A DNA stretch of 46,088 nucleotides from NCBI GenBank assembly GCA_016287095.1, contig JAEEVK010000014.1, forward strand, positions 1-46,088, written 5' to 3'. How positions within the stretch are numbered: position 1 is the first letter of the stretch; each line of letters opens with the position of its first letter. Of the stretch, positions 5,788-43,432 are shown piece by piece. Source of the stretch: Lachnospiraceae bacterium. GTDB lineage: Bacteria; Bacillota; Clostridia; Lachnospirales; Lachnospiraceae. The position numbers were made by a program, and so were the translations under genes. The notes under the pieces were generated by a model, which did no database searches, was not told where the DNA came from, and worked only from the letters and a program-made list of their open reading frames with translations.

Positions 5788-5803
5788 ATGAAAGGTAAGA
5801 GCC

Positions 5804-7558: not shown

Positions 7559-7571
7559 GATGAGGTACTAC

Positions 7572-8177: not shown

Positions 8178-8191
8178 ATTTTCATAACCTT

Positions 8192-8248
8192 TTCACAAAC
8201 TCTTCACGATTTGGGTATATTCTTGGATAGGATTTTTATTCTATCAAG
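8192..8248 (+). promoter_or_regulatory. possible promoter and leader hairpin for the PPIase gene
   Basis: TTCACA (8192-8197) and TATATT (8216-8221) are spaced by 18 bases. A leader hairpin follows, CTTGGATAG (8222-8230) with CTATCAAG (8241-8248), with one bulged base. Its right arm overlaps the start of the ribosome site AAGGAGAG, so it could modulate translation. By eye only. Confidence 0.35.
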
Positions 8249-8262
8249 GAGAGAAATGCGTT

Positions 8263-9480
8263 ATGAAAAAAGAAAACAGCAATGAGGAGTTAAGCCTCAG
8301 CAAACAGAGAAAGCTGGCAAAGAAAAAAGAATTTGCCAGGAGAAAGAGAAATGCGGTACTGACAAAAATCATAGTAACACTGCTGATTTTGGCAGTGATA
8401 GGTATCGTAGTGCTGGTGATAGTAAAGGATCAGATCAAGAAGGCAAAAAGCGTAGCTGTTGATACAGACTATTCCGCACAGCTCGATGATAACGGCAAGA
8501 TAAAGGGTATAAAGGCTGCTGACTATGTTTCCATCCCTGATTACAACAATATCACTGCAGACCTTAGTGAGATAGAGTATTCTGACGAGAGTGTTGAGAA
8601 AGATATTGATACTTTACTGAACAACAAGAAATATCTTGACAGCTCAGCAGATCTGATTGCAGCTAATGGTGACAAGGTAAATATTGATTATAAGGGTTCT
8701 GTCGACGGTGTTGAATTTGATGGCGGCACTGCTGAAGGTGCCGATCTTGAGCTCGGATCTAAGTCCTTTATAGATGATTTCGAACAGCAGATCGAAGGCC
8801 ACAAGCCCGGGGATGAGTTTAATGTAGAAGTAACTTTCCCTGAGGATTATACAAATGATCCCGGTCTTGCAGGCAAAGATGCGGTATTTGCAGTCAAGCT
8901 GAACGGTATCTATGTTAAGCCTGAGTTCAATGATGCATTTGTACAGGAGAATCTCTCTGAGTATGCTTCAACTACCGAAGAGTATCGTAAGTATTTGAAG
9001 GATACCAATTATGAGAAAAACCTGACAAGCTTTGTTCGGAAATATGTAGTTGAGAATACCACGCTAAATTCAAAACCTGAGGCATATTTAAAGCAGCTTA
9101 AGGGTAATCATAAGTCGGATGAATATTCTTACTATGAATACATGAATTCGATGTATTCTACATACTATGGATATACTCCGTATACTTCATTTGAAAACTA
9201 TCTCTCACAGTCCTATTCGCAGACAGAGGAACAGTATGATGAAAGTATAGAAGAAAAGGTAACCGATGATCTGAAATATGCACTGTTCTGTCAGGCAGTT
9301 GCTGAGGCTGAAGGTATTACAGCTAACTATGATGATGCTAAAGCATACTATATAGCTCAGGGCGGTACTGAGGATACCTTCGAATCTCAGGTTACCACCT
9401 ACGGAAAGGGCTATGTTGTTCAACAGTACCTTGGTACTAAGGTTATCAAGGCCATCTGTGAGCGTGTTACTGTAAAGTAA
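8263..9480 (+). CDS. membrane-anchored FKBP/trigger-factor-like peptidyl-prolyl isomerase
   Basis: This encodes a 405-residue protein. A strongly basic N-terminus (residues 12-30) leads into one membrane segment (33-54), and the rest should be outside the cell. Residues 136-218 are an FKBP-type isomerase domain of the trigger-factor kind (VNIDYKGSVDGVEFDGG, then KPGDEFNVEVTFPEDY). The remaining 185 residues resemble the C-terminal chaperone arm of trigger factor in length and helical, acidic character. By analogy with family members it probably folds secreted proteins, comparable in role to PrsA. The region 285-320 is rich in Tyr and Ser. The gene is monocistronic, with its own promoter region and a hairpin right after the stop. 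Confidence 0.82.
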   Translation: MKKENSNEELSLSKQRKLAKKKEFARRKRNAVLTKIIVTLLILAVIGIVVLVIVKDQIKKAKSVAVDTDYSAQLDDNGKIKGIKAADYVSIPDYNNITADLSEIEYSDESVEKDIDTLLNNKKYLDSSADLIAANGDKVNIDYKGSVDGVEFDGGTAEGADLELGSKSFIDDFEQQIEGHKPGDEFNVEVTFPEDYTNDPGLAGKDAVFAVKLNGIYVKPEFNDAFVQENLSEYASTTEEYRKYLKDTNYEKNLTSFVRKYVVENTTLNSKPEAYLKQLKGNHKSDEYSYYEYMNSMYSTYYGYTPYTSFENYLSQSYSQTEEQYDESIEEKVTDDLKYALFCQAVAEAEGITANYDDAKAYYIAQGGTEDTFESQVTTYGKGYVVQQYLGTKVIKAICERVTVK

Positions 9481-9552: not shown

Positions 9553-9573
9553 AGCATACGTCAAATAAAAAGA

Positions 9574-9658
9574 CATACGGGAGCTCGTAATACGGGCTGA
9601 GAGGAAGGTTGGACCTTCGACCGGTAACCTGATTTGGGTAATGCCAACGTAGGGATGC
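9574..9658 (+). promoter_or_regulatory. TPP riboswitch (THI element)
   Basis: The conserved THI-box segments appear in order: GGGAGCTCG, GGGCTGAGAGG, a P3 hairpin (GGAAGGTTGGACCTTC), then AACCTGATTTGGGTAATGCC and CGTAGGGA. These form the pyrimidine- and pyrophosphate-sensing arms. A terminator follows at 9675 and then the thiamine salvage genes, so binding of TPP should stop transcription of the operon. The aptamer assignment is firm because both conserved arms are intact. Confidence 0.95.
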
Positions 9659-9674
9659 TTAAAAACGTTTCTTA

Positions 9675-29899: not shown

Positions 29900-31633
29900 A
29901 TGATTAGTTTCAGAAAAAAAGAAGATACAAGAGATATATTTGAAAAACTCTATCATGATGAAAGTGACGGAGCTGATACGATTTTAAATTATTATGACGG
30001 ATCGATCGCGGACGCTTTTTTCAGGGCTGCGGATATTTATCCGGGATATACTGCTTATGAATTTCTGGGGAGAAAAGTAAGCTATAAAAACATGAGGAAG
30101 CAGGTGGAGCATTGTGCAAAGGCCTTAAAGGCCGTAGGCCTGCAGCCGGGAGAATGTGTGACCATCGCACTTCCTAACTGTCCGCAGGCGCTGTGCCTGT
30201 TTTATGCGGTAAATCTTGCCGGCGGTGTGGCAGCAATGATACATCCCCTCTCATCCGAAAGAGAAATAGAGTATTATCTTCAGACTTCGAAGGCAGTGAT
30301 GGTCGTAACGCTTGATCAGCTTTTCGGAAAATTTAAAAATATACTTATCAATACGGATGTAAGGCTGGCGATCGTAACCGGTATCCAGGACGGACTTGCA
30401 TTCCCGAAGAACATTGCATATAAGATGACGGTCGGAAGAAAGACCGAGAAGGTAGCGGAAACGGAAGACATCTTCCGCTGGCAGACATTTATGGAGCTCG
30501 GCAGCGAATATGAAGGAGCATATGCGGAGAGCCGTTCATGCCATGATCCCGCCGTAATACTTTTCTCGGGCGGAACAACGGGAACCACCAAGGGCGTTGT
30601 TCTGACAAGCTACAATTTCAATTCACAGGCTATACAGATAAAGGCTACGGTACCGGTGCTTACGCCGGGGGATAAGTTTATAGCCGCAATGCCTATGTTC
30701 CACGGCTTCGGACTGGGTATATGCATACACTGCATGCTTTATGCAGGCGCATGTACGATACTTATCCCGAGGTTTACGGCAAAGAGCTACGCAAAGCTTA
30801 TTTCGGATTCGAAATGTTCTTATTTCGCTGGAGTACCCACTCTTTTTGAGGCGATACTCCGCGTACCGAAGCTTCACGGACTTGATTACAGTCACCTTAA
30901 AGGGATTTTCTCGGGTGGAGACAGCCTCTCTCCCGAGCTGAAAGACAGATTTGACAGATTCCTTGCAGAACATAACTCTCCTGTATGTGTGCGTGAGGGG
31001 TATGGAGCGACCGAGACTCTTTCCGCATGCTGTCTTTCTCCTAAGGAAGGTGCAAAGCGCGGCAGCATCGGTTTCCCGTTCGCAGATATGAAATTCAAGA
31101 TCATTGACCGTGAGACGGGTAAAGAGCTTCCGGCAGGTGAGACGGGCGAGATAATCATCAGCGGACCCCTTGTCATGAAGGAATACATAGGTAATCCCGA
31201 GGAGACTGCACAGACTCTTAAAGAGGATGAGAACGGGATCAAATGGCTTCATACAGGCGATTACGGTATGATCGACGAGGACGGCTTTGTATTCTTTAAG
31301 GGACGCGCAAAACGTATGATAATCGCTTCGGGTTACAATGTATACCCCAACCAGGTAGAAGCGGTGCTCATGGAACATGAATATATTGACAAGGCTTGTG
31401 TAATAGGCGTGGCAGATAAATACAGGATGCAGAAGATCAAAGCTTTCGTTGTTTTAAAAGCGGGTATTGAACCGGGTGAGGAGACAAGAAAAGAGATCAT
31501 GGAATACTGTAAGATCAAGTTTGCCAAGTATGCAAAGCCCAATGAAATTGAGTTCAGGGACAGTCTTCCTCAGACAAAGATAGGAAAGACAGATTACAGG
31601 AAGCTTGAAGAGGAAGAAAAGAAGCGTGCTTAA
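29900..31633 (+). CDS. AMP-forming acyl-CoA ligase
   Basis: This enzyme activates a carboxylic acid with ATP and CoA. The 577 residues contain the phosphate-binding LFSGGTTGTTKGVV (221-234), the adenine motif REGYGATET, LHTGDYGMIDEDG, GRAKRMIIASGYNVYP and the C-terminal PQTKIGKTDYRKL with the adenylation lysine. The overall form is that of long- or medium-chain acyl-CoA ligases, but the substrate is not evident. It follows the oxidoreductase genes by 34 bases, with GGGGAGG somewhat distant from the ATG. Placed here it could make the acyl-CoA that the oxidoreductase carboxylates, or re-activate acids released by it. A terminator follows at 31671. Confidence 0.88.
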   Translation: MISFRKKEDTRDIFEKLYHDESDGADTILNYYDGSIADAFFRAADIYPGYTAYEFLGRKVSYKNMRKQVEHCAKALKAVGLQPGECVTIALPNCPQALCLFYAVNLAGGVAAMIHPLSSEREIEYYLQTSKAVMVVTLDQLFGKFKNILINTDVRLAIVTGIQDGLAFPKNIAYKMTVGRKTEKVAETEDIFRWQTFMELGSEYEGAYAESRSCHDPAVILFSGGTTGTTKGVVLTSYNFNSQAIQIKATVPVLTPGDKFIAAMPMFHGFGLGICIHCMLYAGACTILIPRFTAKSYAKLISDSKCSYFAGVPTLFEAILRVPKLHGLDYSHLKGIFSGGDSLSPELKDRFDRFLAEHNSPVCVREGYGATETLSACCLSPKEGAKRGSIGFPFADMKFKIIDRETGKELPAGETGEIIISGPLVMKEYIGNPEETAQTLKEDENGIKWLHTGDYGMIDEDGFVFFKGRAKRMIIASGYNVYPNQVEAVLMEHEYIDKACVIGVADKYRMQKIKAFVVLKAGIEPGEETRKEIMEYCKIKFAKYAKPNEIEFRDSLPQTKIGKTDYRKLEEEEKKRA

Positions 31634-31670
31634 AAAAATGTTTTCGGATAAGTAAATAGTATTATCTTGC

Positions 31671-31699
31671 AGGGCAGGTTTTTTCCTGCCCTTTATCTT
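31671..31699 (+). terminator. terminator of the VOR-ligase operon
   Basis: AGGGCAGG (31671-31678) pairs perfectly with CCTGCCCT (31685-31692) around a T-rich loop, followed by TTATCTTATT. Confidence 0.85.
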
Positions 31700-31768
31700 A
31701 TTCTCTGACGAACAGAACTTATTTTTTGAGTATGAAAATAAACCTATCTATTCCATTGTTGAAATTTT

Positions 31769-31797
31769 TTGAAAATTGTAGTATAATAAAACGGATT
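31769..31797 (+). promoter_or_regulatory. promoter of the patatin operon
   Basis: TTGAAA (31769-31774) and a perfect TATAAT (31792-31797) are spaced by 17 bases. The 70-base leader contains GCGGCATGACAGG but no strong hairpin. Confidence 0.75.
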
Positions 31798-31870
31798 GCT
31801 GGATCATGCCATATAAATTCGCCTGACTGACAGCTTATACGCGGCATGACAGGCTACGGAGGAGACTACG

Positions 31871-32734
31871 ATGCTTATAGACGCCGGTTTGGTGCTTGAA
31901 GGAGGAGGTACAAGATGCCTCTTTTCAGCGGGCATTCTTGACAGATTGATTGAAAACAAAATATATTTTAAACATGTATATTCCGTATCTGCCGGAGCAT
32001 ATGTCGCTATAAGCTATATTTCCAAGCAGAAGGGATGGTCGGAAGCGGCACTCTTAGATACGGTAAAGACGAATAAGCTGTTTTCGTGGTGGCACTTTTT
32101 TACCAGGGGTTCGGTAACGAATATAAAGCTGATGTTCGATAAGATACCGAATGAACTGCTTCCGCTTGATTATGATGAGTTCTTTAACTCGGGACAGGAT
32201 CTTACGATGTGCCTTACCGACTTAAAGACAGGGGATCCCGTATATATCAACAAATATGAAGATAAAAAGCATCTGATGGATATGTGCTGCGCATCCAATT
32301 CATTCCCTGTAATAAGCAGGACAAGGTTCGTGGACGGAAGACCGATGACGGACGGAGGAATGGCGGATGCCATACCGATAAGAAAAGCGGTATCGGACGG
32401 AGTAACCAAAAACCTTATCATACTTACGCAGCAGAGCCGCTACAGGAAAAAGCTTAAAACCAGTAAGCTTATCACCACAAGGTATTTCTGGCACAAGAAT
32501 TTTGTAAGGACAATAAGGGAAAGACCTTATAAATACAACGCAGACCTTGATTTTGTCGAGGAGCTGGTATATCAGAAGCAGGCGATAGCTTTTTATCCCG
32601 AGATATCGCTGCCGAAGCTTATAACAAGGGACCCGAAACGCTTAAGGGAATTATATGCTCACGGCTATGAAATGGGAAAAACGGTTGTGGAACAGACTAA
32701 GGAATTTTTTGGCATAACGGGTGAGACATGTTAA
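31871..32734 (+). CDS. patatin-like phospholipase (YjjU/RssA type)
   Basis: Patatin-like enzymes are serine lipid acyl hydrolases with a Ser-Asp dyad. The oxyanion loop is LEGGGTRCLFSAG (about 9-21), the nucleophile lies in YSVSAGAYVA (S40) and the Asp in MTDGGMADAIP (D161). The nucleophile elbow reads SVSAG instead of the usual GxSxG, with Ser replacing the first Gly. The remainder (287 residues) is typical of bacterial YjjU-like proteins, with no signal peptide. It begins a three-gene operon; the next gene overlaps its last 7 bases. Lipid substrates are not known for these proteins. Confidence 0.9.
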   Translation: MLIDAGLVLEGGGTRCLFSAGILDRLIENKIYFKHVYSVSAGAYVAISYISKQKGWSEAALLDTVKTNKLFSWWHFFTRGSVTNIKLMFDKIPNELLPLDYDEFFNSGQDLTMCLTDLKTGDPVYINKYEDKKHLMDMCCASNSFPVISRTRFVDGRPMTDGGMADAIPIRKAVSDGVTKNLIILTQQSRYRKKLKTSKLITTRYFWHKNFVRTIRERPYKYNADLDFVEELVYQKQAIAFYPEISLPKLITRDPKRLRELYAHGYEMGKTVVEQTKEFFGITGETC

Positions 32735-34095
32735 AAAAAATGCTGATCACACTAAAATACGGCGAGAAAAAAGCAAAGATCCTGATCGTGACGATCATGA
32801 TCCTTGTACTCGGAGGGTTAGGGCTTTTGGCCTTTGGCATATTAAAGTCCTACATTATTCCCCTGGGTGCGGGAGCATTGCTCATGATCATAGGACTTTT
32901 GCTTTTGTTTTCGTTCTCATTTGTGGATATTGACGTAAATATGGAGAAGGAAGCCGAGAACCGCAGGAGTAAAAAGAAGAAAGGCGAAGATCCCGACGAA
33001 GAAACAGTAAAGAAGGAAGAACCGAAACAGGAAAAACCTGTGGAAAATGAAGATCCGGATATTGATTTCTCGATGTTTGCGGAAGATCTTTCGGATATAG
33101 CCATAGGAGTCGGAGGAATGCCGATGCCCGGCGCAAATGCTTCGGGAGATAAGAAGGGATCGGAAGAAGACGGAGAGGCTGAAACCTCTGAGGAAGACGT
33201 AAGGGACGAAAAAAAGGGTAAGAAAAAGAAGGAAAAGAAGGAAAAACAAGAAGACGGAGTTTCGGATGATGAGATAAACGCCATACTCGGCGACTATGGG
33301 GAAGACGACGAAGAAGATGACGATGAAGACGGGAAAAGGGTAAAGGTAAACGGAAGCAAGGATTTCGAAGTAAAAAAGCCCACACCCAAGCAGATAAAAG
33401 CAAGGAAGAAGATGCTGAAGGTCAGAAAGGACGACAGGAGATTCACTCCCATTATTGTAGATGTATGGAAAGCCGTTTCGGCTTTGAGGACTCCGGCATT
33501 TGTCCAGGATAAGGGAAAGACCGCGAACATAGTACTGGTTGAGGGAGCACTGAGAACCGAACTGATGCCCATGTCGGATTTCCTTGAAGTTACATATCAG
33601 AAAAACGTTGAAGAGAACTTCATGGAGCAGTATGAGGAGATACGTAAGGATCCCGATGTAAGCCCCATATTTGAGGAGCTTATCCCGGCATTCTATCAGG
33701 GAAATGTTAGGGGCGGAAGCTCGGAGAACTTTTGCAAGAACCTTTATGTCCTCGGCGGTAAGATGGCTATCACGCCAAGATCGCTGAGAAAGCTTTTCAA
33801 TAAATTTGATTTTCATTTCAAAGTATTTGATTCGCTGGATCTTAAGGGAAATTATTCCGATTATTTCAAAGCCGCATACGAGAACAGGATATTCTGGACG
33901 GACAATGTCATCACTCAGAATGATTATCAGGAAAGAACCAGGAGCATCCTGCAGTCGATGGTCGAGGATACAAAGCTGTTAAACGTTGATTTTGAGCGTG
34001 ACCTGCAGCTTATGGTAAGGTATAACCTGATAACAAAGGAATATGCCGATTACTATATGAGCAGAAAGCGTGACGGCATAAAGCTGCACATCTGA
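32728..34095 (+). CDS. membrane protein with long charged linker, unknown function
   Basis: A 455-residue protein overlapping the patatin stop by 7 bases, so its translation is coupled. Two hydrophobic segments (about 18-36 and 42-65) form a hairpin. Residues 70-215 are an extended Lys/Glu/Asp-rich, probably disordered linker containing GDYGEDDEEDDDEDG. A globular cytoplasmic domain (about 225-455) follows, rich in aromatic and charged residues, with no motif I recognise. The charged linker gives long shadow frames on the opposite strand, which are not genes. Position suggests work with the patatin enzyme or the DUF1653 protein, for example at the membrane surface. Confidence 0.75.
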   Translation: MLKKMLITLKYGEKKAKILIVTIMILVLGGLGLLAFGILKSYIIPLGAGALLMIIGLLLLFSFSFVDIDVNMEKEAENRRSKKKKGEDPDEETVKKEEPKQEKPVENEDPDIDFSMFAEDLSDIAIGVGGMPMPGANASGDKKGSEEDGEAETSEEDVRDEKKGKKKKEKKEKQEDGVSDDEINAILGDYGEDDEEDDDEDGKRVKVNGSKDFEVKKPTPKQIKARKKMLKVRKDDRRFTPIIVDVWKAVSALRTPAFVQDKGKTANIVLVEGALRTELMPMSDFLEVTYQKNVEENFMEQYEEIRKDPDVSPIFEELIPAFYQGNVRGGSSENFCKNLYVLGGKMAITPRSLRKLFNKFDFHFKVFDSLDLKGNYSDYFKAAYENRIFWTDNVITQNDYQERTRSILQSMVEDTKLLNVDFERDLQLMVRYNLITKEYADYYMSRKRDGIKLHI

Positions 34096-34122
34096 TATTT
34101 TGTGAGTTCTTACGGGGGTCAT

Positions 34123-34656
34123 ATGGAGAAGATAAACGGAAAGCTATACAGGCATTTTAAGGGAGGCCTTTATCAGGCTATATGCACGGCAAAGGATTCT
34201 GAGACCGGAGAGGAGCTTGTTATATATCAGGCTCTTTACGGAAGCTTTGAAACTTATGCAAGGCCTTTGAAAAACTTTTTCGAACAGCTTGACAGAAGTA
34301 AATATCCCGACAGCCCGCAGTTGTACCGTTTCATGGAGGTTGAAAAGGATACGCTTCGGGAAAGAACGGATAAGGAAAGCGGGACAGGGATAAGCCGGGA
34401 TGCCGGAGAAACAAAGGAAATAACAGGGAAGAAGGACGATACCCCTCTTATCATACGTTTCCTTGACGCTTCAACCTCCGAGGAGAAGCTTTCCCTTATA
34501 AAGCAGAATTACGACGGTCTCGATGAGAGGACAATTAATAACATCGAGGCGAGCCTCGACATAGTGTCTGAAAGCTCCGACCCCGATGCAAGGATCAGCT
34601 ATATATGTGATGTGTTAAGAACAAAAGCAAGGTATGAAAGCAACCGCTTGAGGTGA
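34123..34656 (+). CDS. DUF1653 domain protein with C-terminal extension
   Basis: The N-terminal 70 residues match DUF1653 (GKLYRHFKGGLYQAICTAKD, ELVIYQALYGSFETYARPLK), a small domain of unknown function often found alone. Here a charged linker (about 75-115) and a helical C-terminus (SEEKLSLIKQNYDGLDERTI and on) extend it to 177 residues. I prefer ATG 34123, which has GGGGG 4 bases upstream, to the GTG at 34102. It follows the acidic membrane protein by 27 bases and ends directly against the convergent glycosyltransferase stop. Confidence 0.75.
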   Translation: MEKINGKLYRHFKGGLYQAICTAKDSETGEELVIYQALYGSFETYARPLKNFFEQLDRSKYPDSPQLYRFMEVEKDTLRERTDKESGTGISRDAGETKEITGKKDDTPLIIRFLDASTSEEKLSLIKQNYDGLDERTINNIEASLDIVSESSDPDARISYICDVLRTKARYESNRLR

Positions 34657-35667
34657 TCATTTCTTTTCTTTTATGATATACGGCGGACGCTGCTTTATCT
34701 CAAGGTAGATACGGGCAAGGTACTGCCCGATGATCCCAAGGAACAGGAGGACTATTCCTCCCATGAGGAGCATCATGAGATAAAGGGTGGGGAAGCCCGC
34801 CACAGGGTCTCCGAATATGATCGTTTTTACCAGATGGTAGATGCCGAGCAAAAAGGATACGAGGCAGAAGATGATCCCAATCCAGGAGCATATCTTAAGG
34901 GGTGTTTCCGAGAAGCTTAAGATTGCATCAAAGGAATAGGATACGAGCTTGCCCGATGACCATTTTGATTTACCGGCCGGTCTTTCGGCGGTTTCGAAAG
35001 GCATCCACAGCGTGTTAAAACCGACCCAGCAGAAGATGCCTTTGCTGAAACGGTTTGATTCGGGCAGGGACAGTACCGCATCGATCATCATCCTGTTCAT
35101 CATGCGGAAATCGGTGGCGCCGTTTACTATGTTAAGTTTTGAAAGCTTATTGAGGAGTCTGAAGAAGAACGAAGAAAAGTGTCTTCTGAAGAACCCCTCT
35201 TTTTTTCTGTTATTACGGTACATTGCGACCGAATCATATCCGCCCGAGTTAAGCTTTTGCCACATTTCGGGGATGAGAGCCGGCGGATGCTGGAGATCGG
35301 CATCAAGAAGCACGCAGAAGTCGCCTTCGATGTTTTTCAGTCCTGCGAGTATCGCCGCTTCCTTTCCGAAGTTTTTGGAGAAGGAGATATATTTTACGTT
35401 TTCGTATTTTTCAGTAAAGCTCCTAAGGACCTCGATAGTACTGTCACCTGAGCCGTCATCGACAAACAGGATCTCGGTCCGACAGGGAAAATCAGCGCTG
35501 CTTTCAAGGGATTTTTCTATAGGAAGCATGCTTTCCATGAAGATGGGAAGGACCTCCTCCTCGTTATAACAGGGTACGATAACGGACAGAAGAGGCAGTG
35601 CCTTTTCCGTATTGATATTGAGATTTTCTTCTGTGTCTGAAGGGGTGATGAATGTTATCTGTTCCAT
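34657..35667 (-). CDS. family 2 glycosyltransferase, membrane bound (GtrB/DPM type)
   Basis: It transfers a sugar from a nucleotide donor, most likely to an undecaprenyl-phosphate carrier. The GT2 motifs are SVIVPCYNEEEVLP (about 28-41), ILFVDDGSGDST and VLLDADLQHPP (the metal-binding D-x-D region). The C-terminus has two membrane helices (about 260-285 and 295-320) and a basic tail, the layout of the GtrB/ArnC/DPM group. AAAGGAT precedes the ATG on the minus strand. Its stop abuts that of the DUF1653 gene with no gap. Any partner flippase or acceptor transferase is not in the window. Confidence 0.9.
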   Translation of the reverse strand: MEQITFITPSDTEENLNINTEKALPLLSVIVPCYNEEEVLPIFMESMLPIEKSLESSADFPCRTEILFVDDGSGDSTIEVLRSFTEKYENVKYISFSKNFGKEAAILAGLKNIEGDFCVLLDADLQHPPALIPEMWQKLNSGGYDSVAMYRNNRKKEGFFRRHFSSFFFRLLNKLSKLNIVNGATDFRMMNRMMIDAVLSLPESNRFSKGIFCWVGFNTLWMPFETAERPAGKSKWSSGKLVSYSFDAILSFSETPLKICSWIGIIFCLVSFLLGIYHLVKTIIFGDPVAGFPTLYLMMLLMGGIVLLFLGIIGQYLARIYLEIKQRPPYIIKEKK

Positions 35668-35698
35668 GTTTTATCCTTTTTATGGTACCTGACCGCTA

Positions 35699-35714
35699 AC
35701 GCTCAGGATGACAA
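35699..35714 (-). repeat. copy of the TGTCATYCTGA-type intergenic repeat
   Basis: ACGCTCAGGATGACAA on the plus strand, in the 58-base gap between the ABC-F and glycosyltransferase genes. The surrounding 26 bases match the copy at 45838 with three differences. Confidence 0.5.
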
Positions 35715-35725
35715 GCAGAGATTGC

Positions 35726-37702
35726 TTAATTGTCACCGGAGTCAAGCCGGTTACTTAAATCTTCCCAGTATTCCATAAGCTCTTCAAGCTTTTTGGAGTT
35801 GGCCTCGTGTTCATTTGACAGTTCGAGAAGCTTTGAAGGTACAGTGGAATTCTCGGGAAGCTGCATTAATTCATCTATTTCCGAATTGCGCGCTTCAAGC
35901 CTGTTTATTTCGTCTTCGGTCTTTTTCAGTTCGTTTTCGAGCCTGCGCTGCGTAGCCTGCTGTTTTTTTGCGTTTTCCCATACCTCGCGGGAGTTCTGGG
36001 CATTGGCGTTTTTATCCCCGGTGTCAGTGGAAGCGGAAGAGGGCGTGCCCTTTGCGGAGCCTGAAGGAGATGCAATTCCGAACCTTTGAGCAAGGAGGGC
36101 GTCTCTTTTTTCAAGATAATAGTCATAGGTGCCGTCAAAGCATACGAAGGTATTGTTGATCAGTTCCATGATACGTGTAGCCGTTTTGTTTATGAAATAT
36201 CTGTCATGCGATACATAGATGACGGTCCCTTCGTAGCCGGAAACAGCCTGCTCAAGTATCTCCTTTGAGATGATATCGAGATGGTTCGTAGGCTCGTCGA
36301 GATACAGCAGGTTTGCGTCGGAGAGCATGAGTTTGGCCAGGGATACGCGGCCCTTTTCACCTCCGCTTAAGTCACGTATGAGCTTAAAGACATCATCCCC
36401 TGTAAACAAAAATGCAGCAAGCACGTTACGTACTTTGGTGTTATCCATGTCAGGATAGGTATCCTGTATCTCGTCAAAAACGGTCTTGTCGGGATCGAGT
36501 ACGTGATGCTCCTGGTCGTAATAGCCCGTAAATACCTTGGCTCCGAGCTTAAAGCTTCCCTCGTCGGGCTCAAGAAGACCGTTCAGGATCTTTAAGAGCG
36601 TTGTTTTACCCGTACCGTTGGCGCCTATGATCGCAACCTTGTCGCCTCTTTTTACCTCGAAACCGGCATCCTTAAAAAGCGTAACGCCGTCGAAGCCCTT
36701 TGTGAGATGCTTTACCGTAAGCACATCGTTTCCGCTCAGGATATTGGGCTCCAAGCGGATATCCATCTCTGCGTTAAGCTCCTTCGGAAGCTCGATGCGT
36801 TCTATCTTTGCAAGCTGTTTTTCGCGGCTGTTGGCACGTTTTATGGATTTTTCCCTGTTGAAGGATTTAAGCTTTTCTATTACCGCTTCCTGATGCTTTA
36901 TCTCGCGCTGCTGGTTGAGATACTGCTTTATAAGAGCATCCCTTAACTGCTTTTTCTTTGCGGCAAACATTGTATAGTTGCCCTCGTAGGAGCATGCGCG
37001 TGTGTTTTCTATCTCTATTACCTTGGTCACTATGCGGTCAAGGAAATATCTGTCATGCGCAACAAGGATGACAGTGCCCTTGTAGGCGCCGAGGAAGCCT
37101 TCGAGCCATCGTATCGCGTCCATGTCGAGATGGTTTGTAGGCTCGTCGAGCATAAGGATGTCGGGCTTGGTGAGGAGCAGTTTTGCCAGTGCGATCCTCG
37201 TTTTCTGGCCTCCCGAAAGGGTATTTACCTGCTTTGAAAAATCTTCCTCGGTAAAGCCTAAGCCCTTGAGACAGCCTGTAATCTCGCTTTTTACCGCATA
37301 TCCGTTTGCGTTCTCGAATTCGGCGTTCATGCGGGAATACCTTGAGAGAGCCTGTTCAAGCTCTACGCCCTCAAGATCCTTTAATGTATGCTCCATCCTG
37401 CGGATATTCTCCTCGAGCGCAAGAAGCTCGGCCTTTACGGAGAGTACCTCATCGTATATCGTGTTTTCACTGCTCAGGTTCTGTGTCTGCGTGAGTATCC
37501 CCATGGTCGCATCCTTCTGTATGGATACGGTACCGGAATCGGGCGAAAGCTCACCTGTTATTATCTTAAGAACAGTCGATTTCCCGGCACCGTTTATACC
37601 TACTATCGCGGCCTTCTGGCCTGCTTCGACATGAAAGGAAACGTCCGAGAGTATGACATCCGTTCCAAAGCTTTTGCTTATATTGTTAACTGATAAAATC
37701 AC
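35726..37702 (-). CDS. ABC-F family ATPase (ribosome-associated type)
   Basis: ABC-F proteins have two ATPase domains and no membrane part, and most act on the ribosome to relieve stalling or give antibiotic resistance. The first domain has GINGAGKST (about 35-43), LSGGQKTRIALAKLL (162-176) and LDEPTNHLD. The second has GANGTGKTT (360-368), LSGGEKGRVSLAKLM and LDEPTNHLD. The arm/linker between them (about 243-325) is helical and basic (YLNQQREIKHQEAVIEKLKS). A C-terminal coiled coil (about 575-655) resembles the YdiF/Uup end. I start at GTG 37702 (658 residues), behind AAGGA. The TTG further upstream adds 14 unlikely residues. Housekeeping or resistance role cannot be told apart here. Confidence 0.9.
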   Translation of the reverse strand: MILSVNNISKSFGTDVILSDVSFHVEAGQKAAIVGINGAGKSTVLKIITGELSPDSGTVSIQKDATMGILTQTQNLSSENTIYDEVLSVKAELLALEENIRRMEHTLKDLEGVELEQALSRYSRMNAEFENANGYAVKSEITGCLKGLGFTEEDFSKQVNTLSGGQKTRIALAKLLLTKPDILMLDEPTNHLDMDAIRWLEGFLGAYKGTVILVAHDRYFLDRIVTKVIEIENTRACSYEGNYTMFAAKKKQLRDALIKQYLNQQREIKHQEAVIEKLKSFNREKSIKRANSREKQLAKIERIELPKELNAEMDIRLEPNILSGNDVLTVKHLTKGFDGVTLFKDAGFEVKRGDKVAIIGANGTGKTTLLKILNGLLEPDEGSFKLGAKVFTGYYDQEHHVLDPDKTVFDEIQDTYPDMDNTKVRNVLAAFLFTGDDVFKLIRDLSGGEKGRVSLAKLMLSDANLLYLDEPTNHLDIISKEILEQAVSGYEGTVIYVSHDRYFINKTATRIMELINNTFVCFDGTYDYYLEKRDALLAQRFGIASPSGSAKGTPSSASTDTGDKNANAQNSREVWENAKKQQATQRRLENELKKTEDEINRLEARNSEIDELMQLPENSTVPSKLLELSNEHEANSKKLEELMEYWEDLSNRLDSGDN

Positions 37703-37813
37703 TTTTGTTACCGTCCTTTTAATGATCGCGGTTTTGAAAACCAATCATAATCATTATATCAGATTTTTACAGCATAGTCAAATGCGGTTTTGCGTGTAAA
37801 AACAAAGCTTCAC

Positions 37814-37842
37814 TTGACATATCGGGGTATTTGAGGTATCTT
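37814..37842 (+). promoter_or_regulatory. promoter of the MutS-like/VWA operon
   Basis: TTGACA (37814-37819) and TATCTT (37837-37842) with a 17-base spacer. The transcript would start near 37850 and carry the inverted-repeat element at 37869 as its leader. Confidence 0.6.
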
Positions 37843-37868
37843 TATATTGAGAAAATATGTAAAACAGA

Positions 37869-38051
37869 TTACTATTCACAGCCTATCTGCAAAAAATGGC
37901 TATGGCAAGCTTGCTTGCATATAGCCATTTTGGCAGATAGGGCTATGAAGGCTGGACAAGACACACGAGTAAGCTTTTAGTCGCGTCAGCGACAACTTAC
38001 GGCGAAGCCGGAAGGCTTATGAGTGTGTTTTGGACAGGCTGTGAATAGTAA
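37869..38051 (+). repeat. nested inverted-repeat element (MITE-like or leader RNA)
   Basis: The ends form a perfect 16-base inverted repeat: 37869-37884 (TTACTATTCACAGCCT) with 38036-38051. Inside is a near-perfect 26-base hairpin (37885-37910 with 37913-37938). A second long arm (37957-37978 with 38012-38032) contains two small perfect hairpins, GTCGC/GCGAC (37980-37993) and CGGC/GCCG (38000-38010). The whole 183 bases folds as a closed branched structure at DNA or RNA level. It lies between a promoter and the MutS-like gene's ribosome site. No transposase, no clear target duplication and no coding frame were seen. Confidence 0.8.
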
Positions 38052-38075
38052 CTTCCAGCTTTAAAGGAGATTTGG

Positions 38076-39641
38076 ATGGGTTTTGAAAGCATACTTGATC
38101 TGAAGGAGCCGGTTAAGGGAATGACGAGACCGGCATTGTTTTTGGATCTCAATGTCGATCAGATAATAGAGAGGATTACGAAAAACAGTCCGAAAAAGTC
38201 AGATTATTACGAGTATTTTCCTCTTGATGAGGAATGTGAAAATTACCGCAGGATGATATACCGCGATATAAAGAAGAACAGCCTTTATGAGCCTCTTCAG
38301 ACATTTTGCGTGAAATACGGAGAGTATAAGGAGCTGGAGGCCAAAAAGGAAGACACGAAGGTTGATGTGCAGGAGCCTGTATGGCATTTCTGTGCGATAA
38401 AGGTATATACGGAGGCATTACTTGAACTTCTGGAAGCTTTACAGAAGGCAGGGCTCGAGTCGGAGGGACTGATCTCCTTAAGGGACTGTCTTAAGGCTTA
38501 TACATCCCGGGAGGAGTTCATATATATCAACAGGGTATCCCGTGAACTGGCCGAGGAGATGGACAGCCTGATAGTTGAGGCATCCTATGAGAACGGAAGG
38601 GTAGTGGTTTCGGTCTCGTCGGGGGATGAGGAGGATCAAAAGGAAGAGGAAGACTCAGATGATCCAAACAGAAAGGATTATGCCGAGTACGAGGAGTTTT
38701 TAAGGTATTTCGATCCGGAAAACGAAAAGAATTTCGTGAACCCGTTTTCAAAGGTATACTATCTTACGGGCTTTGAGCAGGAGATAGTAAAGAATGTTGA
38801 AAAGAAGAATCCGGGTCTTTTTAAGAAAGCGGATAAGCTGCTGGAGGATCACGAAAAATACGAGGATGAGGTTTTCTCAAGGCTTGCGGATGAGCTCGGG
38901 TTTTATCTTTGTTATTACGAGTTTGAAAAGAAGATGCAGGATGCGGGCTTTGCTTTCTGCGAGCCCTCATGCAATGTGAATGAGAAGATAAGTGCCGACG
39001 ATCTTTACGATCTGGCTCTTGCGTGCGTAAATCTTGAAAAGGATAAGCCTGTTGTAAGCAACAGCTTCTATTATGACGATAAGGACCTGTTCTTTGTACT
39101 TACAGGACCCAACCAGGGCGGCAAGACGACATTTGCACGAAGTATGGGACAGCTGGTTTATTTTACAAAGATCGGTTTGGACGTTCCGGCAAAAAAAGCA
39201 AATGTACACTGGTTTTCGGATATTCTTACGCATTTCTCGGTTGAGGAAAGCGTTGAAACCGGAAGAGGTAAACTGATGGAGGAGCTTGTAAGGCTTTCAC
39301 CCATGATGAAGAGGCAGTCGTCAAACGCCTTTGTGGTGATAAACGAGCTTTTTACAACGGCTGCGAACTTTGACGCGATAATCATGGGAAAGAACGTTTT
39401 AAGCCATTTCATACGCGAGGGCTGCCACGGGATCTACGTAACCCATTTAAGGGAGCTGTGCGATGTGGATGAAAGAGTGGCGGGGTTAAGCGCCCAGCTT
39501 GATGAGAACAGGGTACAGAATTTTAAAATTTTGCGCAGAGGTGTTGATTATGTGGGCTGCGCCGAGAATCAGATAATCAAGTTCGGACTGGGGTACGAAA
39601 AGCTTAGTGAAAGGCTCAAGGAGAGACTGGGTAAAGCATGA
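38076..39641 (+). CDS. MutS-like ATPase, first of a tandem pair
   Basis: This 521-residue protein has the MutS-family ATPase domain in its C-terminal third: Walker A FVLTGPNQGGKTTFARSMGQ (around residue 343-352), THFSVEESVETGRGKLMEEL, a Walker-B-like VVINELFTTAANFDA and YVTHLRELCD. The Walker B Asp is Asn (INE instead of the usual DE). The N-terminal part is helical with an acidic insert (SSGDEEDQKEEEDSDD) and shows no MutS mismatch-recognition domain, and there is no Smr domain at the end, so it is neither MutS1 nor MutS2. AAAGGAG (38063-38069) precedes ATG 38076. The next gene overlaps by 4 bases and encodes a related ATPase, suggesting a heterodimer. Confidence 0.85.
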   Translation: MGFESILDLKEPVKGMTRPALFLDLNVDQIIERITKNSPKKSDYYEYFPLDEECENYRRMIYRDIKKNSLYEPLQTFCVKYGEYKELEAKKEDTKVDVQEPVWHFCAIKVYTEALLELLEALQKAGLESEGLISLRDCLKAYTSREEFIYINRVSRELAEEMDSLIVEASYENGRVVVSVSSGDEEDQKEEEDSDDPNRKDYAEYEEFLRYFDPENEKNFVNPFSKVYYLTGFEQEIVKNVEKKNPGLFKKADKLLEDHEKYEDEVFSRLADELGFYLCYYEFEKKMQDAGFAFCEPSCNVNEKISADDLYDLALACVNLEKDKPVVSNSFYYDDKDLFFVLTGPNQGGKTTFARSMGQLVYFTKIGLDVPAKKANVHWFSDILTHFSVEESVETGRGKLMEELVRLSPMMKRQSSNAFVVINELFTTAANFDAIIMGKNVLSHFIREGCHGIYVTHLRELCDVDERVAGLSAQLDENRVQNFKILRRGVDYVGCAENQIIKFGLGYEKLSERLKERLGKA

Positions 39642-41287
39642 ACGCATTTTTATTATACAGTGACCGTGAATGGACAGGCGTCAGGAAATACTTTGACGCA
39701 AAGAGCATAGTCCGGGATCTGGGGCTTAAGACATTATATATGAACGCCGGTAAGGATGTCGTGTTCGAGAACGGAGTGGCAAAAAAGATCAAGGAGCAGG
39801 ACGCTTTCATTACCGATACCATGAGCAGGGTCATGGTCGCTCCTCTCGAAACAAAGGAGGAGATTGTTTACAGGCAGAGGATATTGAAGGACTGCCTCAA
39901 TAACGAGGATTTCATCGGGGAACTCTATAAACTGGCGAATACTATCGTTGTAGAATGGGATAAGCTCGGAAGAAAATCCGGGTATACGGGAAAGACCGAT
40001 GTTGCCGGTTTTGCGGTTATGAGGATACACCTGACGGAGCTTTTCGCCGACGGCTTAAAGAAGCTGAAAAAGCTGTTCAGAGGGCATATGGTGCTGTTTG
40101 AGTCGGAGGGGCTGAAAGCATTCGGGACCAGGCTTAAGGAAGAGTTCAGTGACGAATATGAGAAGAAGATAGACAAGCTTATACATGATGTTTCCTTCTA
40201 CGTTTCGGAAAGCGAGGAGCGTGACGGCAATATTTATCTGCATATGCCGAGGATAGTTTTAAGGGGAAAGCTTGGCGCGGGTCTTAAATTCGAGAAGGTT
40301 GTGTTAAAGGACGTTTCTTCGGATCTTATCCGTTACCGTAACCCGAAGAGTACGATAGCAAAGATAGTAGCGTTTAAGAATTCCTTAACGGCCAATTCTT
40401 TTTCGGCAAAGATGACGCCGGGCATAGAGAAACAGGTTGTGGAGTTTGAACAGAGCACCGTCAACTATATGGTTTCGTTCATGGGAAAATTCATAGACAG
40501 TTTCTCCGGATTCTTCGATCAGCTGCTGTTCCAGGCCGCATTTTACAGAGGGGCTGTAAACTTAAGCAGCCATATGAAGAGGATAGGCATTGACTACTGT
40601 TTCCCGGTCGTATGCGACAAGCATGATATTGCTTTCAGCGAACTTAAGGAATTTGTCATGTGCATGGAACAGAGGGTTAACGCCGTAGGCAACACCTGCA
40701 ATATACAGAAAAAGAATCTGGTCATCATAACGGGCGCGAATCAGGGTGGTAAATCCACTTTCCTAAGGAGTGTCGGCATCGCGCAGATCATGATGCAGGC
40801 CGGCCTTCAGGTAGCGGCAGAGACATTTTCGAGCGGGATATTCACATCGGTGTTCACGCATTTCACGAGGCGTGAGGATTCGGCGATGAACAGCGGAAGG
40901 CTCGAGGAGGAGCTGGGCAGGATGAATACGATCATCGATAATCTCGATGACGATTCACTGGTGCTCTTAAACGAATCCTTTGCGACGACCACGGAGATAG
41001 ACGGCTCGATCATAGCCTATGATATCATAAAGGCGCTGAATGAAGCCGGAGTCAAGATCATCACAGTTACGCATCTGCTCTCGTTTGCAAGAAAGATGTA
41101 CGCGGAATCTGAGGAGGTTCTTAAGTCGACCGGACATACCGATATAACGTTTTTCTGTGCGGAGAGGAAGGATGACGGAGAAAGAACCTTTAAGATGATA
41201 CAGAGTGTTCCCGAGCTTACGAGCTTCGGACTTGACCTGTATAAGGAAGTAATCGGAGAACCCGATCTTTACGGGGAAAAACTATAA
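39638..41287 (+). CDS. MutS-like ATPase, second of a tandem pair
   Basis: A 549-residue MutS-family ATPase starting within the stop of its neighbour (ATGA, 39638-39641). It has Walker A VIITGANQGGKSTFLRSVG (about 361-379), TRREDSAMNSGRLEEELGRM, Walker-B-like LVLLNESFATTTEIDGS and TVTHLLSFAR. As in the first protein, the Walker B Asp is Asn while the catalytic Glu is kept. The N-terminal region (1-330) looks helical like the MutS core and lever domains, but the DNA mismatch-binding domain is absent. The pair differ in sequence, so this is old duplication, not a recent repeat. Co-translation suggests an obligate complex. DNA or RNA structure binding is likely by family; the role is unknown. Confidence 0.85.
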   Translation: MNAFLLYSDREWTGVRKYFDAKSIVRDLGLKTLYMNAGKDVVFENGVAKKIKEQDAFITDTMSRVMVAPLETKEEIVYRQRILKDCLNNEDFIGELYKLANTIVVEWDKLGRKSGYTGKTDVAGFAVMRIHLTELFADGLKKLKKLFRGHMVLFESEGLKAFGTRLKEEFSDEYEKKIDKLIHDVSFYVSESEERDGNIYLHMPRIVLRGKLGAGLKFEKVVLKDVSSDLIRYRNPKSTIAKIVAFKNSLTANSFSAKMTPGIEKQVVEFEQSTVNYMVSFMGKFIDSFSGFFDQLLFQAAFYRGAVNLSSHMKRIGIDYCFPVVCDKHDIAFSELKEFVMCMEQRVNAVGNTCNIQKKNLVIITGANQGGKSTFLRSVGIAQIMMQAGLQVAAETFSSGIFTSVFTHFTRREDSAMNSGRLEEELGRMNTIIDNLDDDSLVLLNESFATTTEIDGSIIAYDIIKALNEAGVKIITVTHLLSFARKMYAESEEVLKSTGHTDITFFCAERKDDGERTFKMIQSVPELTSFGLDLYKEVIGEPDLYGEKL

Positions 41288-41305
41288 TGAAAAGGAGAAG
41301 GGAAA

Positions 41306-43432
41306 ATGGATATCAGGAGCTTAATTGAAAACAGTAAACAGCAAAAAGACATGTATGAGTATTTAAAAAGCATAGGTTACGGGGAGAAGGCGGCAAGCGT
41401 CCTTTCACTTATTCCTTACGGAAGAAGTGTTACAAGACGTTTTATGGAACTGTTTAAAGGCGAAAATATCCTTGACAGGGTTTATGATGAGCTTTGTGAG
41501 ATAAATGCCGAAGATATTTACGCGGCAATGCTTAAGGTCATTTCGCAAAAGTGCGGGGACAACCCCGATGAAAGCGAAGCGGATTCGAGGAGAATGTATT
41601 CGCGGATGCTGAATTCGGCTCCGGCCGGGAGCGCAACCGGAATGGGAGGAGGACTGATGGGCGGCGCCGTTATGGCTTCATCGGCAATGATGGGAGGAGC
41701 TGTCATGGGTTCGGGCGGAATGATGGCTCAGGCGATGATGTCTGCTTCTTCCGCGCCCATGGGAACGCCTATGAACGCATTTGCCTCGATGAGCATGGCT
41801 CCGGGAGCAGGGTTTCAGCCCGCAGCTACCGATTCCTATGAAAGAATAGAGGAAAAGGATGAGAAATCGGTTATTACCGCACCTACCTCCACTTTTAGAA
41901 TGACAACCAGTACGGCGTCTGTCGGGATCCTTTTGAATCAGGTCCGTTCCGGCAGGGATTTTTCAATATCGCAGGTTCGTATAGAGGAACTGCTCAATTA
42001 TTTTGATTATGATAACGGCAGATGGGCAAAGGAGAACAGGGAAAAGTTCAGGATTAGTACAGAACTTCTTGACAAGGCCGAGGGCAGGAAGATACTCTAC
42101 ATCAATGTTGAGGCCGATGATACCCCGAAGCCGGTTCAGAATATTGTACTTCTGCTCGATACATCGGGAAGCATGGGTTCAAATTCGGATAATACCATAG
42201 CTGCTATCGCGACCGTTGTCAGCAAGCTGAACAAGGGCGATACCTTCAGCCTTGTAACCTACAGTACTCAGGATCATACTTATTTTGAAAATCATGAGAT
42301 CGCGGGACAGGGCGACAAGGAAGATGTAATGGGCGTTATCCTCGGAATCGAGATAACCGGGTGCACGAACGGTTCCGCGGGTATAGAGACGGCTTATTCC
42401 ATAGGTGAAAAGACTTACAGCCCCGATAAGAGCAATCAGGTCATACTGATAACCGACGGAGATCTTAATTTCGGCATAGCAGATAAGGACGGACTGAAAG
42501 ACCTGATAGAAGAGAAAAAGAAGACCGGTATGTTCCTTTCCGTCATCGGGACAGGATTGTACAACTATAAGGATGATAAGCTTGAGGTTCTCAGCAAGTA
42601 CGGTAACGGAACCTACTGTGTAGTAAACAATCTGGATGATGTTAAGGAGAGCATTAACAGAAAATACGTGAGCCTTACCAATATTGTCGCAAAGGATGTA
42701 AAGGCTCAGGTTGAGTTTAATCCAAAATATGTATCAAAATACAGGCTCTTGGGCTATGAGAACAGAACTCTTGCGCATGAGGATTTTGTAAATGATGCGG
42801 TGGTTTCGGAGCCTTACGGAAGCGGCGGACAGGGAGTTGCCGTATATGAGCTGTATATGGGAGATGCATCCGCATCAGGTGAGGAACAGTTAAAGTACCA
42901 AAAGCTGGTAATAAACGATCTTAAAGAGCTTGGTACCGTAAAGGTAAGATATAAGCTGCCTTTGGAGGATGTTTCGGAAGAGGTTTCCGCAGTGATCCCC
43001 GTTGACTGCAAAGAGGGTGAAAACGTCAAAAAGGCATATCTCGTCTATTGCCTTTCTGAGAGGCTCAGGAATTCGGGCAAGCTTGACAATGATGATTATA
43101 AGTATCTGGCAGGCATGCTTAATGATGATAAATACAGGGAGCTGCTCAAGGGTAAGGATGATGTTTTCTGCGCACTTTTTGAGAAGCTTAAAAACGATGC
43201 GGTAAAGGAACCGGAAAAACCTCAGGTTCAGCCGATCCCTCAACCTTTCATCGGTTTTCCCTCTTCTCCGTTCGGTATGGGCATGGGCATGATGACAAAC
43301 GGCGCAAACAGCGGTCCGGTCGGTCAGAGCACTACGGCGCAGACTTCTTCAAACGGAAACTGGGTATGCAGTAAATGCGGTACTACAAACGCGGGAAAAT
43401 TCTGCGCGGGCTGCGGTAATCCGAGAGAATAA
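41306..43432 (+). CDS. YfbK-like VWA protein with Met/Gly-rich segment and zinc ribbon
   Basis: Residues 1-80 are helical. Residues 106-170 are a low-complexity segment rich in Met, Gly and Ala with about 14 Met in 60 residues. Residues 192-240 match the YfbK-type N-terminal VWA-associated domain (DFSISQVRIEELLNYFDYD). The VWA domain has an intact metal site, LLLDTSGSMGSNS (D285). A DUF3520-like C-terminal region (about 450-610, VEFNPKYVSKYRLLGYENRT) follows. The end is a proline/methionine-rich linker and a zinc ribbon (CSKCGTTN and CAGCGNPRE). YfbK relatives are usually exported lipoproteins; this one has no signal peptide and a cytoplasmic-type zinc ribbon. It follows the MutS-like pair by 18 bases. 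Confidence 0.88.
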   Translation: MDIRSLIENSKQQKDMYEYLKSIGYGEKAASVLSLIPYGRSVTRRFMELFKGENILDRVYDELCEINAEDIYAAMLKVISQKCGDNPDESEADSRRMYSRMLNSAPAGSATGMGGGLMGGAVMASSAMMGGAVMGSGGMMAQAMMSASSAPMGTPMNAFASMSMAPGAGFQPAATDSYERIEEKDEKSVITAPTSTFRMTTSTASVGILLNQVRSGRDFSISQVRIEELLNYFDYDNGRWAKENREKFRISTELLDKAEGRKILYINVEADDTPKPVQNIVLLLDTSGSMGSNSDNTIAAIATVVSKLNKGDTFSLVTYSTQDHTYFENHEIAGQGDKEDVMGVILGIEITGCTNGSAGIETAYSIGEKTYSPDKSNQVILITDGDLNFGIADKDGLKDLIEEKKKTGMFLSVIGTGLYNYKDDKLEVLSKYGNGTYCVVNNLDDVKESINRKYVSLTNIVAKDVKAQVEFNPKYVSKYRLLGYENRTLAHEDFVNDAVVSEPYGSGGQGVAVYELYMGDASASGEEQLKYQKLVINDLKELGTVKVRYKLPLEDVSEEVSAVIPVDCKEGENVKKAYLVYCLSERLRNSGKLDNDDYKYLAGMLNDDKYRELLKGKDDVFCALFEKLKNDAVKEPEKPQVQPIPQPFIGFPSSPFGMGMGMMTNGANSGPVGQSTTAQTSSNGNWVCSKCGTTNAGKFCAGCGNPRE

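Follow-up and report, generated by a model that had tools for sequence, protein, structure and literature searches.

We analysed a stretch of 46,088 nucleotides from a Lachnospiraceae bacterium (assembly GCA_016287095.1, contig JAEEVK010000014.1), referred to throughout as the window, in which two adjoining genes encode a pair of MutS-like ATPases. Subunit A (521 amino acids (aa), 38076-39641, + strand) has a helical-rich N-terminal region with the MutS_V ATPase C-terminal to it, and is followed by subunit B (549 aa, 39638-41287, + strand), whose start overlaps the A stop in an ATGA. Eighteen bases separate B from a third open reading frame (ORF) on the same strand, a layout given in an original prediction made from the letters alone and confirmed here from the ORFs. 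By Pfam, PF00488 (MutS_V) was the only family above cut-off in either subunit, with zero matches to MutS_I, MutS_II, MutS_III, MutS_IV or Smr, in agreement with the predicted absence of mismatch-recognition and Smr domains.

Single-chain AlphaFold models reached a mean pLDDT of 85.3 for B and 85.9 for A and were mostly helical N-terminal to the ATPase domain. The top PDB fold matches of the models were MSH3, MSH2 and MutS, with query TM-scores of 0.36-0.58 within the top 50, and on the strength of these models the fold class is safe, though the domain geometry is not. Since the N-terminal region is helical and the matches were to MSH3, MSH2 and MutS, the N-terminal body appears to be partly retained, and the part absent by sequence is, as modelled, the mismatch/connector portion rather than the entire N-terminal body. 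The net charge of the N-terminal part (median -10 in A and -5 in B) was considered as a functional clue and set aside as undiagnostic, because the MutS1-like protein of the genome is negative as well. When the proteins were tested groupwise for MutS1 identity, the tree did not place A or B with MutS1 and the MutS_I and MutS_II domains were likewise not found. A separate 892-aa MutS1-like ORF adjoins a MutL-like ORF in the genome of the window (both named from sequence).

Genome contigs were scanned with the B alignment, and at least 567 stretches were found to encode a relative. The 80 loci kept (L061-L140; L numbers denote loci and G numbers genomes) came from Lachnospiraceae, Acetatifactor, Lachnoclostridium, Clostridia or Clostridiales, plus one 'Bacterium D16-50', and were mostly from metagenome-assembled genomes (MAGs). 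A adjoined B in 66 of these 80 loci. In an enlarged set, A lay directly 5' of B in 136 of the 144 loci with a B, and 101 of these 136 had a gap of -4. Clustering at 97% B identity groups the 144 loci into 122 clusters, and they are not all independent. This set was drawn from 150 loci, leaving out L216 and L231 (no B called), L163 (a fusion) and L164, L166 and L056 (distant pairs). A natural A-B fusion of 1046 aa was found in L050 (G004), and its halves group with the A and B clades; a second fusion, of 1116 aa in L163 (G109), derives from a more distant pair of the same branch. As judged from these sequences, the pair A-B itself is the unit.

Presence of the pair was patchy, with 13/24 genomes of the genus of the window and 17/299 genomes of the family positive, and with 17/31 and 20/22 in two other genera. 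The 20/22 genus also has a second, more distant type of pair. In L226-L242, which belong to one genus, a second type of pair was syntenic between U32 peptidase/CBM9-domain genes on one side and zf-HC2, polA and coaE on the other, with RNase J further upstream (domains checked in L239 alone); the CBM9-domain, zf-HC2 and polA adjacency in one genus was not taken as functional. OLE RNA (436 bits) was found at L165 4388-5000, directly 3' of a MutS-like pair from a more distant NE-type branch. The gene block around the pair (window 29900-41287) was also found a second time in the same MAG (contig C204 of G000, locus L009) at interspecies divergence. Among eight congeners compared, the C204 copy was nearer to G022 and G009 (A 73-78%, B 88-91%) and the window copy nearest to G016 (A 71%, B 82%). 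It is likely that a second species was co-binned in the MAG, so the two copies should not be read as belonging to one genome.

ATP-site changes and the NE-type branch

The residue at the Walker B Asp position was Asn in both subunits, with the following Glu kept (INE in A, LNE in B), as had been noted from the window alone. Asn423-Glu424 of A (39342-39347, + strand) and Asn445-Glu446 of B (40970-40975, + strand) were invariant across the alignments (69/69 and 73/73 rows, respectively), which excludes a sequencing accident. A further change was found in the signature that reads Ser-Thr-Phe in MutS1 and MutS2. This is replaced by Gly398-Lys399-Leu400 in A (39267-39275, + strand; GKL in 67/69 rows and GRL in 2/69) and by Gly420-Arg421-Leu422 in B (40895-40903, + strand; GRL in 73/73 rows). 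All 12 other MutS rows had DE together with S-(T/S/Y)-(F/Y), in contrast to NE with G-K/R-L in 69/69 A and 73/73 B rows. Among 27 further rows of the branch, 24 had NE with GKL or GRL, the exceptions being SRM with NE, GHL with NE and GRF with DE. Every row of the gut type, to which the window belongs, had an intact Walker A Lys, an intact Glu next to the Walker B position and an intact His; His457 of A (39444-39446, + strand) was present in 69/69 such rows, with Phe in 31/31 A rows of a second, fluoride type described below. The B signature residue also differed by clade, being Arg in the gut type and Lys in the fluoride type, whose pairs have Lys in nearly every signature of both subunits.

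In structures of MutS the Ser-Thr-Phe motif reaches into and acts on the ATP site of the partner, and a Walker B Asp to Asn change alters Mg2+ handling or slows hydrolysis. A structure of E. coli MutS D693N is on record in PDB (3k0s, by its title), and we take its substituted Asp to be the same Walker B Asp as is changed in A and B.

In a tree of ATPase regions, A and B and further single or paired proteins formed a group of 67 rows with a Shimodaira-Hasegawa-like approximate likelihood ratio test (SH-aLRT) support of 100, opposite 12 rows of MutS1, MutS2, KamC and membrane type. By sequence, A and B belong to a distinct 'NE-type' MutS branch apart from MutS1, MutS2 and KamC. In a second tree, the A clade held 53 rows (SH-aLRT 99), comprising 30 of fluoride type (98) and 22 of gut type plus the scaffold L253 (75), and the B clade mirrored this split (96 overall, 94 for fluoride type, 80 for gut type); the search behind these values was a quick one, and support for the gut clades is only moderate. 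This second tree was computed without L249, whose A and B score the same as the L248 proteins, without L285, for which no ORF matched, and without an A from L283. The window pair has the A-B arrangement, NE and G-K/R-L of the fluoride-type clade, yet falls outside the fluoride-type A and B clades, as their sister. A and B are thus, at the level of their sequences, paired and coupled genes with mirrored clades, without recognisable mismatch or connector domains and with a paired change of charge at the ATP site.

With respect to known systems, MutS2 resembles A and B in being an ATPase of MutS fold without domains I and II; it differs in bearing Smr, which A and B do not, in its DE and STF row and in forming a separate clade. 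MSH2-MSH3 and MSH4-MSH5 are MutS-fold heterodimers, as A-B is presumed to be, and MSH3 and MSH2 gave the top PDB folds, whereas A-B is bacterial and far shorter, with mismatch and connector domains undetected and an altered ATP site. KamC (NF052383, lysine 5,6-aminomutase reactivase ATPase) is comparable as a MutS-like ATPase that stands alone and is annotated with a role not involving DNA, but it has DE/STF and clusters in the tree with the MutS2-like proteins. Identity with KamC was rejected, as A and B scored 61.2 and 62.9 bits against the NF052383 cut-off of 300 and both tree and motif disagree. The ORF before KamC (presumed KamB) had no match to the A and B profiles. PMC3149608, followed up as a lead on KamC, shows a mutS-like gene within a gene cluster. 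According to PMC12292046, many MutS subfamilies of prokaryotes that lack domains I and II are still largely uncharacterised.

The fluoride riboswitch in the sister clade

The crcB motif, later recognised as the fluoride riboswitch, was placed before genes including 'DNA repair (mutS)' by Weinberg in 2010 (PMC2864571). Fluoride-type pairs were found in further Bacillota, and Pseudomonadota and Actinomycetota carry them on plasmids. A tblastn search of plasmids with B returned 50 records, 45 with at least 80% query coverage and all below 60% identity, spanning Klebsiella, Citrobacter, Enterobacter, Burkholderia, Rhodococcus and others. In 8 of the 15 plasmid records listed, two features named MutS lay beneath the match. 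In L248-L252, one ORF scored 320-413 bits with the A profile and 86-115 with the B profile, and the next ORF scored 353-365 with the B profile. The flanks of the plasmid copies were mixed and included genes for an antiporter, universal stress protein, HAD P-type ATPase, crcB, enolase, phosphoglycerate mutase, a chloride-channel-family protein, DHHA2 and inorganic diphosphatase; antiporter, universal stress, crcB, eno or ppa genes were annotated near L248-L251 and L286. Dynamin-family genes were annotated near the fluoride-type pairs of L251 (11560-13677) and L286 (11126-13231), and were recognised by weak similarity (21-28%) near the pairs of L288, L290, L295, L296 and L299.

The Rfam fluoride riboswitch model RF01734 matched ahead of an antiporter-universal stress-A-B run in L248-L250, and on the same strand 5' of A in L251, L281, L282, L284 and L286. 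In Clostridia contigs a riboswitch was found 5' of A in L159 and L162 (Rfam) and in L160 (8546-8616, by R1, a model built here). Soil Alicyclobacillus and Caballeronia are among the carriers with the riboswitch immediately 5' of the pair. Across the phylum, 22/398 genomes matched at 1e-60, and RF01734 lay upstream on the same strand in 14/19 fluoride-type Bacillota loci at the Rfam gathering score (L270 exactly at that score), or in 15/19 with R1, which adds L266. These 19 loci (L256-L267, L269-L274 and L278) represent 18 genomes, of which several share a genus, and are not independent. A riboswitch was counted as upstream when it lay directly before A or before a co-directional gene run ending in A-B; that of L262 is 1.36 kb upstream on the same strand, with the intervening gene inferred from congeners. 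Four loci from three genomes were excluded from the 19 (L276 and L277, outside the A and B clades, and L275 and L280, unplaced in the tree and scoring far below the others), and a fluoride riboswitch was found in none of them. R1 was built from 30 such riboswitches and therefore mostly matches sequences that went into it; L266, the L160 site and L257 4445-4519 were matches from outside that set.

The plasmid p027_SK3a pair WP_008786682/WP_008786683, which lies under RF01734, is like the window pair in its A-B order, 4-base overlap, NE and G-K-L signature. Pairs of this type and the window are also alike in that A and B can be told apart by profile score, and they form sister clades for both subunits. 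They differ in that p027_SK3a-type pairs have the riboswitch, fluoride-related genes nearby, Lys signatures and Phe in A, while in the window no riboswitch was found, B has Arg and both subunits have His.

Leader and neighbours of the pair in the window

A sigma-70-type promoter-like site, TTGACA-17-TATCTT, lies at 37814-37842 on the + strand, and its TTGACA is invariant in eight aligned leaders of the window clade. Rfam found no fluoride riboswitch in the window, the leader of the pair included; a TPP riboswitch (62 bits) was found at 9567-9672. The leader also contains a 183-bp element (37869-38051) with 19-nt terminal inverted repeats carrying one mismatch and a predicted RNA folding energy of -100 kcal/mol (z -12). 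An exact 15-base search for its end across 300 loci found it just in overlapping copies of the same place, and the element is a candidate for either an insertion resembling a miniature inverted-repeat transposable element or a structured leader.

The third ORF (708 aa, 41306-43432, + strand) encodes a YfbK-like VWA protein with a zinc ribbon, as the original prediction had stated (YfbK_C PF12034, VWA PF00092, vWF_A PF12450; CSKC-x10-CAGC near the C-terminus). The prediction had also coupled this protein to the pair, and this part did not hold. When conservation of the neighbourhood was checked, the pair proved to be widespread without a VWA neighbour. None of the 80 other loci (L061-L140) had an adjoining VWA-like ORF, although L068, L112 and L124 stop at B with no downstream gene visible, and the VWA gene adjoins the pair only in the window among the loci examined. 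VWA-like ORFs lay farther from the pair in L101 (strong; second gene, opposite strand) and in L099 and L083 (both weak), and VWA paralogues of 54-58% identity sit elsewhere, in G016, G022, G009 and G000, at loci where no pair was found. In nine loci of the genus of the window (L009 and L041-L048), a DUF975/CmpB membrane protein gene lies 3' of B, and after it a gene that looks metallophosphatase-like by sequence, and it is the DUF975/CmpB position that the VWA gene holds in the window. In L061, too, Pfam identified the gene after B as a DUF975/ABC_trans_CmpB membrane protein. The other four loci of the genus (L049-L052) had neither DUF975 and metallophosphatase-like genes nor VWA after B, and had other neighbours. 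The DUF975-like and metallophosphatase-like genes were also found together without a MutS pair in L186 (7917-11185; G013 C67), and were thus rejected as partners in favour of local synteny.

A GGDEF-EAL gene lies two places downstream in the window, and GGDEF proteins adjoin some other pairs, with a 4-base overlap with B at L107 12384-13805 and L110 12390-13811. In the first set, GGDEF occupied position 1 in 11/150 cases against 8/614 at positions 2-6 (P 2e-4); a set of 41 further non-redundant loci gave 2/75 against 2/343 (P 0.15). With one locus per 80% cluster they were 9/166 against 10/678 (P 0.005), and per 70% cluster 4/94 against 3/340 (P 0.04). GGDEF adjacency is a weak lead, and both the VWA and GGDEF-EAL neighbours lie outside the machine proposed below.

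A survey of 107 immediate neighbours, taken after size and length filters and without L129-L140, was made, of which 94 were used for Pfam and PADLOC. DNA-processing families other than RNase E/G and HTH were missing among the 25 most frequent of the 121 Pfam families in these 94 neighbours. An ABC-F-like-domain gene was divergently linked to the pair, in a cluster confined to the window clade. In L107, an mfd-like gene (5583-9266; TRCF, UvrB_inter and helicase domains) ends 16 bases within the longest A frame, and in L110 the gene before A belongs to that same cluster.

Interpretation of the pair and competing explanations

From the coupled frames, the A-B fusion, the fold and the motifs, we infer a heterodimer with composite sites acting as an ATP-gated clamp. 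Two ATP sites would be formed across the A/B interface, one from the Walker A and B motifs of A with Arg421 of B and the other from those of B with Lys399 of A. The charge change pairs Asn for Asp in cis with Gly-Lys/Arg for Ser-Thr in the motif contacting the site of the partner, and the sites would lean less on a Walker-B-held Mg2+ and more on the basic finger of the partner. Because of this lesser reliance on Mg2+ and the basic finger, the ATP-bound closed dimer would be long-lived, and the clamp would open and close on its substrate without reading mismatches. The target, which is the least certain step, would most likely be a complex of nucleic acid or ribonucleoprotein, like those of MutS1 and MutS2. 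In the sister clade, riboswitch control together with nearby antiporter, universal stress, crcB, enolase and pyrophosphatase genes suggests that the pair most likely serves fluoride (Mg-F) stress. Enzymes relying on metal-ATP are inhibited by fluoride (PMC11139923), and an ATPase that has to work while Mg-nucleotide enzymes are poisoned would be well served by an ATP site with less dependence on Mg. In the gut/rumen clade, where the riboswitch was not found and an ordinary promoter-like site is present, the same machine may respond to another trigger or be constitutive. By a narrow balance of probability, we regard the window pair as a heterodimeric NE-type MutS-fold ATP switch outside mismatch repair, serving fluoride stress in the sister clade and having another or a constitutive trigger in the window.

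Several observations weigh against this reading. In the sister clade, no riboswitch was found in 4/19 Bacillota loci (L269, L271, L272 and L273) or in L285 (Tsukamurella), the pair of L283 (Rhodococcus) lacks a preceding riboswitch although crcB and eno are nearby, and the riboswitch of L252 (Rubrobacter) faces a divergent antiporter rather than lying in the leader of the pair. R1 found no fluoride riboswitch in 81 gut/rumen-type sources, window included (1.43 Mb, E up to 1), of which L069, L090, L097, L101 and L105 stop short of the A leader; R1 has six base pairs and scored the Rfam-positive L249 and L283 sites at E 0.09 and 0.76, so that weak sites can be missed. Rfam itself was run on the gut-type loci window, L009, L061, L062, L070, L072 and L104. 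A further R1 scan covered 45 loci (18 gut-type out of 60), and the weak gut-type matches in L207 (E 0.38) and L188 (E 0.48) lie away from A. Nor was a fluoride riboswitch found anywhere in the genome of the window (~85% complete); one was present anywhere in 2/24 genomes of the genus, and in the pair-bearing G013 it was on a different contig. For the pair of the window itself, a fluoride role would be no more than an analogy with the sister clade. With Phe in place of His in 31/31 fluoride-type A rows, catalysis may not be the same in the two clades. The fluoride type does not contain the gut type but is its sister, so that fluoride control may, as far as the tree goes, have been ancestral with later loss, or have arisen in the sister clade. 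The node uniting A and B (support 69) includes nine further NE rows and does not support A/B sisterhood. The mfd gene directly upstream of A in L107, and that of the same cluster in L110, fits a DNA role.

The same mfd linkage favours a clamp for branched DNA, comparable to MSH4-MSH5 or MutS2, that would close on Holliday junctions or D-loops and regulate recombination or repair, with fluoride induction reflecting DNA damage. It is joined by the MutS fold without a mismatch domain, by MSH2, MSH3 and MutS as the nearest solved folds, by polA two genes 3' of the pair in one genus and by the DNA-damaging stress proposed for mutS behind the crcB motif in PMC2864571. The near absence of DNA-processing families among the frequent neighbours, and the genes annotated around plasmid copies, chiefly for ion transport and Mg-enzymes, argue against such a clamp, as does, weakly given the likewise negative MutS1-like protein, the negative N-terminal charge; we consider it possible but on balance doubtful. 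Stalled ribosomes are split by MutS2 (PMC12292046), and the pair might be a MutS2-like splitter that frees ribosomes with metal-fluoride-trapped GTPases in the sister clade and stalled ribosomes generally in the gut. A chain of the MutS2-disome structure (7qv3_w) was within the top 50 folds for A, and the divergently linked ABC-F-like gene would fit this, but A and B lack Smr and the ABC-F-like cluster is limited to the window clade, and rescue of this kind is unlikely. Less likely still is a broader proposal in which the 'mutS' of fluoride regulons and the window pair would be one less Mg-dependent heterodimer family, staying active under metal fluorides to clear frozen ribosomes or nucleoprotein, in gut Lachnospiraceae without the switch. 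In it, metal fluorides would freeze ordinary P-loop NTPases, while in the pair the Lys/Arg finger of the partner would replace the Ser-Thr contact and Asn the Mg-holding Asp.

Patchy presence and plasmid carriage would suit an anti-phage defence pair. PADLOC, however, gave no match for A and weak partial matches for B and VWA (best E 4.3e-5), and any PADLOC family recurred in at most 4/94 neighbours, a count without background control. Several plasmid copies adjoin fluoride genes, a pattern scan of viral contigs confirmed no relative and a phage set gave one 7.7-kb unannotated scaffold, all of which makes a defence role very improbable. The three-part machine of A, B and VWA envisaged in the original prediction has the 18-base spacing in the window in its favour; with the VWA gene adjoining 0/80 other pairs and its paralogues lying elsewhere, we give it almost no credence. 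What stands of that interpretation is the dedicated MutS-like pair with no mismatch domain and an unusual Walker B.

We know of no biochemistry for A/B-type proteins. The fluoride riboswitch study of Baker in 2012 may list mutS. Among the top papers listed from a collection thin in subscription papers, none was found on the A-B heteropair or its ATP site, nor any treating 'fluoride riboswitch' together with 'MutS'. The earlier statement that no such system has been described has to be corrected, as plasmid orthologues of the pair carry the annotation 'DNA mismatch repair protein MutS' and mutS was tied to the crcB motif in 2010 (PMC2864571).

These data set a group widely misnamed 'DNA mismatch repair protein MutS' apart from mismatch repair, and fluoride provides a testable physiological handle for part of it. 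The crcB-mutS link has been recorded since 2010 as 'DNA repair', while the copies examined here encode the two subunits of a dedicated ATPase whose active site is altered, and genes filed as 'DNA repair' in fluoride regulons may do something else. The question raised is what use a MutS-type heterodimer would have in cells whose Mg-dependent enzymes are poisoned, and in gut bacteria that carry it without the switch.

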